In this document: positions 25,416 to 64,000 of the stretch, one piece after another
How the letters are laid out: every line of letters begins with the position of its first letter
How positions within the stretch are numbered: the stretch's first letter is position 1
From: Coprinellus micaceus
Lineage: Eukaryota > Basidiomycota > Agaricomycetes > Agaricales > Psathyrellaceae
Direction of reading: 5' to 3'
Assembly (NCBI GenBank): GCA_951394405.1
Contig: OX596342.1
Location: forward strand, 1,116,001 to 1,180,000
DNA length: 64,000 bases
Made by a program: the position numbers and the translations under genes
The notes under the pieces: generated by a model
Database searches by the model: none
The model's input: the letters and a program-made list of their open reading frames with translations, nothing else
What the model was told of the DNA's origin: nothing

Positions 25416-25420
25416 TATAA
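25416..25420 (+). promoter_or_regulatory. TATA-like element of the repeat-precursor gene
   Basis: TATAA 108 bases upstream of the ATG, inside GGGAGTATAAGAATCC. The stretch between it and the start codon is C-rich and free of ATG, which fits a short 5' leader. Confidence 0.5.
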
Positions 25421-25523
25421 GAATCCCCCCTTGCAATCGATCCCACTGCGCAGAGCCCCCACCTCAACACGGACATTTCCCTCCCCAACACCCGTCCCCT
25501 CCCCCTACCACCAACTCTCCGCC

Positions 25524-26221
25524 ATGAAATTCACCACTGCCGCTGTTGTCGCCGCTCTCTCGCTCTTTTCTGTCATTTCCGCTGCACCTGTGGGTTTCGG
25601 GCTTCTCTGCTTCTTTTGATTGTCCCCTGGAAGGAAAGAATACTGATCTATAACGCCGCTTATTTTACAGGTCGATCTTGCTGCTGTATGTGGACTACTT
25701 TCTCTTCCCCGGCTCCGTCTATTCGGGCGCTAATTAATTTCCTTCTGCAGCGCGGACCTCCCTCTTGGAAGCGCGATGAAGTTGACGCACGTGGTCCCCC
25801 CTCCTGGAAGCGCGACGAAATCGATGTTCGCGGCCCCCCCTCTTGGAAGCGCGATGAAGTAGACGCCCGTGGTCCCCCTTCGTGGAAGCGTGATGAGGTC
25901 GACGCTCGCGGGCCTCCGTCCTGGAAGCGTGAGGAAATTGATGCTCGCGGACCTCCCCCCTGGAAGCGCGACGAAGTCGACGCCCGTGGGCCTCCCTCTT
26001 GGAAGAGAGATGAGGTCGATGCTCGCGGACCCCCTTCTTGGAAGAGGGGGGGCGTCGACGCCCAGGGTTCTCCCTCCTGGAAGAGGGACGAAGTCGACGC
26101 TCGGGGACCCCCTTCATGGAAGCGCGACGAGGTTGATGCTCGTGGCCCTCCTTCTTGGAAGAGGGATGAGGTCGACACTCGCGGACCTCCTTCTTGGAAG
26201 CGGGGCCCTCCTAGCTGGTAA
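25524..26221 (+). CDS. Secreted precursor of repeated short peptides (candidate Kex2-processed repeat protein)
   Basis: Exons 25524-25589, 25671-25685 and 25751-26221, all joined in phase 0, encode 183 residues. Residues 1-20 are a clear signal peptide (Lys, then a hydrophobic core ending FSVISAAP). A 15-base microexon gives VDLAA. The last exon is eleven units of 13 residues (39 bases) with consensus RGPPSWKRDEVDA, then RGPPSWKR and a final GPPSW before the stop. Every unit carries a KR pair, the site of the Golgi protease Kex2. Cleavage after KR would free about ten peptides like DEVDARGPPSW (before trimming of KR) and a terminal GPPSW. Variants occur in unit 2 (DEIDV), 5 (EEIDA), 6 (PPPW), 8 (GGVDA), 9 (QGSPSW) and 11 (DEVDT). 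Known proteins of this plan include alpha-factor, Ustilago Rep1 and RiPP precursors such as UstA. The function is not known. Confidence 0.85.
25751..26218 (+). repeat. In-frame tandem repeat of 39 bases, 11 full units plus two partial
   Basis: Units start at 25751 and every 39 bases to 26141, followed by a 24-base and a 15-base partial unit. Amino acids are far better conserved than bases: glycine uses all four codons, serine at least five, arginine five. The repeat is coding, not a CRISPR or satellite. Confidence 0.95.
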
Positions 26222-62600: not shown

Positions 62601-64000
62601 GGTCGACAAAGGCCGCGTCTTGGATGGCGCGCCACCGGAGGAAGGCGTTGTGGCCCATGAAGGGAGCGACTTCGCCGTTCGCGCAGGCTACGAGGCGGGG
62701 GGAGTCGGAGGAGCGAGGGAGGGAGGGAGGGAGTGAGTAGAGTGGTAAGAAGGAGAAGGAATGAAACGAACGCACAAATCGAGATACACCGATTAATCCT
62801 CCTTGTAAAGTACGCAATCCCATTCTCAAAGTAATGCCCAACGACCTTCAGAACGTCCGACTCGTGCTGCAAAATCGCGACCCGCGGGTCCTCCGCCATC
62901 TCCCTCGCAGCATCGCGGAGGCAGTCTTCCGGGACGATGGTATCCGAGTCGACTATGAGCACGATCTGTCGGTGTCGTCGGTTCGTTAGCTCTCGTCGCC
63001 TCTCTCCCTTCTTTACCCCATCCCCGAATAAATATAAAAAAGTGGGAGCCATGGACAAAGGTAGAAAAGTAGAGGAGGTAGAGGAAGAAAAGAAAACGCA
63101 CCTCCCCAACCCGACACCCCCTCCCATTCGCCGCCCACGGGCGCACCTTCCGCTCACTCACATCCTCCTCCCACACCTCCTCAATCGCCATACTCAGCGC
63201 GCGCTCTTCAAGGTCGGCGTCGCCCCAATGTGCTAGCCCGGTGGGGTTGTTACCTTTTTTGCTTTTGCGTCAGTACACCACTCTTTGGCTGGGTTGAATA
63301 GGGACTGGAGGGAGAGAGGGAGAGGGAAAAGGGGAAGATAAACGCACCTATAGGCGTCGCCGTCCCCGCACTCTGCGCATTCCCAATGAACGCACTACTC
63401 CTCGGCGTCCCAGGAAGATGGCCCCTCCCCCCCGCACCCCAAATCACACTCTCGTCCCCGTCCCGATTCTGGTACTGGATCCCGTACTGCGTCCCATTCC
63501 CATTCCCACTCCCATTTCCGTTCCCGTTCCCATTTACGTTTCCAGTCCCATTTACATTACCATTTACGTTTACGTTTCCATTCAACCCATTCCCATTCCC
63601 ATTTGCATTGACGTTCCCACCGCCCTCGTTGGAGTGCGCGTGCGACAACGACTGAGACGTCCGGTGGTGCGAGTCGTCCGCGGACATGAGCTGGTCGAGG
63701 TGTTTCTCCATCTTGAGGCTCAGGGCGAGGCCTGTTCGCGGAGTATCGTCAGCTCGGATCGTTCGTAGCGCGGAGAGTGTGGAATGGAGATGTAGGAAGG
63801 AGAAGGAGGAGATATGGAGGGTGAATTAGGGGAAGAGAAAGGGAGGTACGCACCGTAATTCATATTACTAGCCTTCTTGAACCGCCCCGCGCGCCGGAAG
63901 CCTCCAGGCGCGGAGTCGTGCCGCGGGCGCGCGACCCAGCCGATGTTGTGGTTCGCGTAGAAGGCGAGGCGGGCGTCGCGGTCGGGTGGGGGGAGCAGCT
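59601..64000 (-). CDS. CpsA-type family 2 glycosyltransferase (cell-wall polysaccharide synthase), 5' end outside the window
   Basis: Processive GT2 membrane enzyme related to Aspergillus CpsA; its polymer is not settled. Exons in transcript order: 64000-63854 (partial), 63731-63348, 63232-63147, 62965-62776, 62687-62408, 62334-62222, 62145-61949, 61546-61506, 60953-60810, 60209-60087, 59728-59698, 59639-59601; 590 residues visible. Catalytic blocks: IVLIVDSDTIVPEDC (DxD), ILQHESDV, GHNAFLRW, SEDFDMALRL (acid-base ED) and ELNRWQKYAYGC where QxxRW normally lies. Membrane segments follow (YGIAGSITIGVINYVLLG, FFFFFGGLAIPL, a segment in exon 60209-60087). The C-terminus IVLNPWLMVFSY matches the family end. 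The substrate loop carries an Asn-Gly repeat. Several introns are very long (358, 402, 552 and 600 bases) against 50-70 elsewhere. The reading frame closes across all junctions. Confidence 0.9.
63475..63625 (-). repeat. Asn-Gly/Asn-Val low-complexity coding repeat
   Basis: Imperfect repeats of a six-base unit (GGAAAT/GGGAAT on the coding strand) encode roughly 45 residues of alternating Asn with Gly or Val inside the polysaccharide synthase. The tract lies between MEKHLDQLMSADD and the YQNRDGDESVIWG stretch, ahead of the catalytic DxD. Confidence 0.85.

Follow-up and report, generated by a model that had tools for sequence, protein, structure and literature searches.

As judged from its sequence, a gene in a 64,000-nucleotide stretch of the Coprinellus micaceus genome (hereafter, the window) encodes a predicted Kex2-processed repeat protein (KEP), a member of an already known class. 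The array of GPPSW peptides in this precursor appears to be old and to be maintained by selection on the peptide. The precursor is probably processed up to a linear GPPSW pentapeptide, with release of an 11-residue form also possible; we infer here its cleavages, mature form, secretion and role. Two putative marks distinguish the gene, namely a conserved Arg where its relatives have a Ste13 signature and the presence of sister genes with related cores in the same genome. The case is an unusually clear one: a single pentapeptide is repeated 13 times, apparently under selection, without a UstYa match on the contig and with a paralogue of related core. This makes the function of the peptide and a possible common receptor directly testable, with the synthetic pentapeptide and by gene deletion.

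Gene model and repeat array

The gene model spans positions 25524-26221 of the window on the forward strand and has three exons, with introns that begin with GT and end with AG. The predicted precursor has 183 residues, none of them Tyr or Cys, and no Pfam match at an E value of 0.1. The features of the gene are as follows (window positions and strand):

25416..25421, +, TATA-box-like TATAAG, 108 nt 5′ of the ATG
25524..25589, +, exon 1, signal peptide MKFTTAAVVAALSLFSVISAAP, with a hydrophobic core
25590..25670, +, intron 1, GTGGGT...TTACAG, phase 0; in the model of the paralogue KEP2 (see below), a phase-0 intron likewise follows AAP at this place
25671..25685, +, exon 2 (tentative), 15 nt, VDLAA; the frame is kept with or without it
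25686..25750, +, intron 2, GTATGT...CTGCAG
25751..26221, +, exon 3, including the stop codon, with the repeat array (tandem repeat of period 39 at 25751-26202)
25751..25774, +, first partial unit, RGPPSWKR
25775..26203, +, eleven full 13-residue units, with the consensus DEVDAR-GPPSW-KR from their comparison
26204..26218, +, last partial unit, GPPSW between Lys-Arg and the stop codon, without a spacer

An N-terminal signal peptide, as is expected of a KEP, was recognized by inspection and by hydropathy, with a top 9-residue Kyte-Doolittle mean of 2.6 among the eight starts sampled. Signal peptide cleavage sites follow the -3/-1 rule, by which cleavage is probable after residue 20, between SA and AP. 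The N-terminus that follows the signal peptide is provisional, because the 15-nt exon stays in frame whether it is used or skipped and because the donor of intron 1 is GTGGGT.

After the signal peptide, the protein continues with VDLAA-R-GPPSW-KR, the eleven 13-residue units and a bare GPPSW before the stop codon. The consensus is matched exactly by seven of the eleven full units. There are 13 cores with the pattern G[PS]P[SP]W, 11 of which are exactly GPPSW, and all 13 Lys-Arg-bounded fragments end in P[SP]W. Arg stands directly before the core in 12 of the 13 copies (11 times as a single residue and once within Lys-Arg) and Gln in the remaining one. The eighth full unit, GGVDAQGSPSWKR, is divergent and lacks the Arg before the core. 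The first spacer (VDLAAR) deviates from the consensus, and the last copy, KR-GPPSW-stop, which has no spacer, likely marks the core. DEVD, the textbook caspase-3 motif, occurs in 8 of the 11 spacers (window 25775-26182), which is probably a coincidence.

The initial annotation had given the same coordinates, a signal-peptide-like start, eleven 13-residue and two partial units, and Lys-Arg boundaries, and all of these were found as described. Its array stands, but its count of about twelve peptides does not, as there are 13 cores. The Kex2-processed repeat architecture that it proposed is supported by the signal peptide and the 13 Lys-Arg-bounded fragments, whereas its view that such a precursor would be unusual in a basidiomycete conflicts with precursors of this type already described in PMC6339444 and PMC9769878. 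By the definition in PMC6339444, cleavage of a KEP at KR or RR gives four or more fragments, at least three of which are similar, and these make up at least 15% of the protein. The window gene yields 13 fragments, and the 13 cores alone account for 36% of the protein, with fragment similarity scored by our own script rather than by the published FIMO pipeline.

Among the open frames of the window, only the GPPSW array has at least three similar KR- or RR-bounded fragments (10 of 12 fragments similar), and the same scan gave no match when the window was resampled with a first-order Markov model, in two sets of 20. The eleven full units have a mean DNA identity of 76% (59-90%). In frame, their differences (55 pairs of 11 units) correspond to a pS of 0.73 and a pN of 0.083, for a pN/pS of 0.11. 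Deviations from the majority fall at third codon positions in 60 of 73 cases, an excess for which the binomial p of 1e-17 assumes independent deviations, which these are not. In the shifted sense frames, pN/pS is 4.1 and 2.0. In antisense, the ratios are 2.1, 3.8 and 0.16; the low value arises because the silent positions of that frame fall on those of the gene. The ratio is 0.075 for the core with its KR and 0.148 for the spacer, or 0.056 and 0.083 without the eighth unit. Furthermore, unit similarity does not drop with distance along the array; therefore, the copies appear to be old and not recently copied from one another. Both chance and recent tandem duplication are ruled out as the origin of the array by the range of identities, the dominance of silent differences and the lack of a distance gradient.

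Proposed processing and mature product

In the proposed mechanism, the precursor would go into the secretory pathway, where Kex2 would cleave C-terminal to each Lys-Arg. Once a Kex1-type carboxypeptidase had trimmed the Lys-Arg, the products would comprise eleven 11-mers, of which seven read DEVDARGPPSW, together with an N-terminal peptide and a single free GPPSW. Further cleavage, C-terminal to the single Arg before the core, would convert most of the released peptides into an identical linear pentapeptide, GPPSW; the enzyme would be Kex2, which accepts some monobasic sites, or a different protease. This peptide would be secreted without UstYa-type cyclisation and would act extracellularly, either as a mycelial signal or towards other organisms.

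The Kex2 and Kex1-type proteases that accompany a KEP are represented in the genome by P-proprotein loci and S10 matches, respectively. There are two P-proprotein (P-domain) loci of kexin type, with neighbouring frames in which subtilisin-type and membrane or acidic-tail stretches can be seen by eye, and 28 S10 carboxypeptidase matches, without a specific Kex1 assignment. One DPPIV-type gene is also present. In the window gene, the Ste13 XA/XP signature follows the Kex2 site in none of the eleven full units, or at 1 of 12 sites if the last GPPSW is included on account of its GP. Xaa-Pro-Pro resists DPPIV-type enzymes, which would shield GPPSW from Ste13.

The simplest reading would be that GPPSW is the product and that the Arg is a monobasic site, because Arg precedes 12 of 13 cores, the first spacer is different and the last copy is spacerless. 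KEP products cut after a single Arg are reported upon expression in Pichia (PMC9769878). The Arg would be unneeded if the spacer were retained, as would happen if Lys-Arg cuts were the only ones and the acidic 11-mer DEVDARGPPSW (with minor variants) were the mature product, with GPPSW as its common tail; the different first spacer and the bare last copy also count against this rival. Nevertheless, the 11-mer stays a live rival, because the spacer is conserved too, nearly as much as the core (pN/pS as given above). In addition, the eighth unit, which has no Arg, counts against a monobasic cut to GPPSW, and Coprinopsis is reported to release the long DDDPEGPPAPSW alongside GPPAPSW (PMC9769878). 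We regard the 11-mer as a tenable, though not a probable, mature product, which may coexist with GPPSW.

Another reading concerns the fate of the peptides rather than their length. Rep1 of Ustilago maydis is described as a KEP without a Ste13 signature, as is the case for the GPPSW precursor, and its peptides are reported to attach to hyphae (PMC6339444) and to form amyloid-like fibrils (PMC9769878), a likeness drawn from description and not from sequence. The released peptides could, in the same manner, coat the hyphae as surface or wall peptides instead of serving as a soluble signal. This appears improbable, as a Pro-rich core of five residues with one Trp is, in our judgement, not amyloid-looking, and the Coprinopsis analogues occurred in culture supernatant (PMC9769878).

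Sister genes in the genome

The assembly has 50.3 Mb in 17 contigs, with the window on contig C9. Outside the window, three places were found to resemble the GPPSW gene to different degrees:

C2:1082942-1083495, -, KEP2 (L018), found by a spaced W-K-R pattern and by protein search
C10 near 1677465, -, KEP3 candidate (L077), with an E value of 0.094 with KEP2 as the query
C2 near 3493578, -, a weaker fourth case (L001), a secreted-looking frame in which a signal-like stretch precedes LDARGSPAWK, PDWRR and SPGPPVWK, with a tail behind them that contains Thr/Pro and Cys

KEP2 was matched by the window protein with an E value of 7.2e-17, and the reverse searches gave 3.4e-12 and 1.1e-8, all of them values that internal repeats inflate. 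Its model has 162 residues, a signal peptide and a 65-nt phase-0 intron that follows AAP and precedes V, as in the window gene. This common intron place and the junction between AAP and V further support KEP2 as a paralogue. It has 12 cores of the form [GA]SP[SA]W (GSPSW, GSPAW or ASPSW), which are bounded by KR or RR, and it ends with GSPAW before the stop codon. The XA dipeptide of the Ste13 signature is present at 5 of 11 sites, and the pN/pS of the cores is 0.32.

The KEP3 candidate was not retrieved by the protein search with the window gene as the query. Its model reads MYFPLAQILLISLSVLTSLVASAPTPSPEA-QQNRPSW-RR...DAAPEP-QQNRPSW-KR-NADEVIARAW, with an uncertain 3′ exon, and thus has two QQNRPSW cores, with the Ste13 signature at 3 of 3 sites. 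Its XA/XP runs are consistent with Ste13 trimming and are reminiscent of QMRPPSW and QYKAPSW, both already published. The QQNRPSW precursor is perhaps a third gene of the GPPSW-type plan, for which common descent is only putative. The candidate ends in NADEVIARAW, a tail reminiscent of the DEVDAR spacer in the window gene. In the models of the two other KEP genes, TATAAG occurs 116 and 165 nt 5′ of the ATG. The fourth case could be a relative that has decayed or become fused.

These places stand out from a larger set. A first pattern search of the genome gave 15 places (2 in controls), 11 of which are in the array and 4 elsewhere (L001-L004), with L001 the only one of interest. A second search gave 86 places (44 in controls), of which 11 are in the array, 30 were scanned for KEP frames and 45 were left untranslated. 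Besides the window gene, KEP2 and the KEP3 candidate, the scan picked out L024 (L025 is the same repeat) and L058, which by eye are repeats of other kinds and were dropped. The protein search with the window gene as the query also gave two overlapping C10 matches around 2048.4 kb (E values of 5.4e-7 and 1.4e-4, each with 11 TAG stops inside) and matches on C5 (0.0029, L058) and C12 (0.997); as far as scanned, none of these had a KEP-like open frame, and all were dropped. In viral contigs, a collection that says little on fungi, the protein search gave 1 pattern-matching stretch, which was not confirmed, and the DNA pattern gave 0; in prokaryotic contigs, which say equally little on fungi, the protein search gave 25 pattern-matching stretches, none confirmed.

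A broader and rather doubtful proposal is that the -P[SA]W precursors (GPPSW, GSPSW/GSPAW and QQNRPSW) may be distinct channels of one linear mushroom signalling system with a novel receptor, in which the window gene would have swapped Ste13 trimming for a monobasic Arg cut. If true, a small -P[SA]W family within one genome would constitute one peptide signalling system.

Published relatives, other precursor systems and surroundings

Basidiomycete KEPs with the alpha-pheromone plan are reported in surveys of 2019 (PMC6339444) and 2020 (PMC7329392). Those of PMC6339444 share with the window gene the signal peptide, the repeated cores and the Kex2 sites, and differ from it in that its 11 full units have no Ste13 signature. 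According to PMC9769878, Ste13 motifs and cores with a C-terminal Trp are common among basidiomycete KEPs. The -PSW ending has published analogues, because GPPAPSW and DDDPEGPPAPSW were both detected in Coprinopsis culture supernatant, and QMRPPSW and QYKAPSW were detected for a Coprinopsis KEP expressed in Pichia (PMC9769878). In the collection of papers searched, the string GPPSW occurred in two, both unrelated by title, and related strings led to GPPAPSW (PMC9769878) and to two papers unrelated by title; it is possible that the GPPSW family was already listed in the KEP surveys.

The closest comparisons are with Coprinopsis cinerea. KEP 447393, compared by its published peptides and not by alignment of the full precursor, is like the window gene a secreted KEP with GPP-containing products that end in PSW, in acidic-extended and short forms (PMC9769878). 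Its peptides come from a non-repetitive C-terminus, whereas the window gene has 13 GPPSW copies and an Arg between spacer and core. KEP 490115, the source of QMRPPSW and QYKAPSW in Pichia, also has -PSW-ending cores but, unlike the window gene, combines XA/XP dipeptides of the Ste13 type with RR sites (PMC9769878); by eye, it is closer to the KEP3 candidate than to the window gene. As regards function, PMC9769878 describes no detectable phenotype for six Coprinopsis kep knockouts, no antibacterial activity for the synthetic KEP peptides tested, and no specific function for any mushroom KEP peptide examined.

The alpha-factor-like plan of the precursor would also suit an alpha-type sexual pheromone with a Ste2-like receptor. 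This is extremely unlikely: a STE2 profile search found no match in the genome, a weak point as 14 control genomes gave none either, and the window gene lacks, in its full units, the Ste13 signature by which alpha-pheromone-type KEPs are known. The usual mating pheromones of basidiomycetes are lipopeptides with a C-terminal CaaX, and the 25 STE3-type matches in the genome, on C8 (933-970 kb), C13 and C3, fit that system. The cluster at C8:933840-969957 probably corresponds to the mating-type B locus. Of 35 Cu-oxidase matches in the genome, one laccase exon is most similar to PDB 9gly, followed by 1hfu and 1a65 of Coprinopsis, which together with the STE3 cluster points to an agaricomycete, perhaps of the Agaricales. 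A CaaX a-type pheromone is itself ruled out for the window gene, as the precursor ends in GPPSW and has no Cys.

UstA-type dikaritin precursors share with the window gene a signal peptide and Kex2-bounded repeats, and a UstYa profile finds six matches in the genome. Tyr in the core serves the oxidative cyclisation of dikaritins. A dikaritin-type RiPP, with cores oxidatively cyclised by UstYa-family enzymes prior to release, is nevertheless very unlikely and is disfavoured by the positions of the UstYa matches and by the missing Tyr. These matches lie on C4 and C6, and none is on C9 or on C2 or C10, which bear the other precursors; neither a nearby UstYa (DUF3328) match nor a core Tyr was found, and Cys is missing from the precursor as well. 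Accompanying UstYa genes are reported at an average of 3.09 genes away (Umemura 2020, PMC7329392). The initial annotation had noted neither a UstYa-like neighbour nor a seven-helix receptor nearby; the former was borne out by these profile matches, and the latter agrees with the lack of a STE3 match on C9. Profile searches of the genome were run exon by exon, with the best candidates scored; a missing UstYa match is thus no proof of absence, and a distant enzyme that modifies the GPPSW precursor is conceivable. Separately, the six UstYa matches form three pairs, each within 5 kb, at C4:1058044-1060340, C6:3055882-3060325 and C6:174781-175557, which are candidate dikaritin-like clusters, and the loci around the UstYa matches include one weak KEP-like ring, L049 (3 of 5 fragments similar).

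In the window itself, 10 of the 29 frames scanned had a Pfam match at the cut-offs used, and most frames near the GPPSW gene had none; unannotated neighbours thus remain. The Pfam matches include the following (window positions):

5.6 kb, GT90 piece
10-14.4 kb, DNA2-type nuclease-helicase pieces
30.6 kb, class II tRNA synthetase piece
47.3 kb, SUI1
62-63 kb, family 2 glycosyltransferase
63.3 kb, TrAA12-like match, sub-threshold

Near the end of the window, a short tandem repeat of TCCCAT-like units occupies positions 63491-63609.
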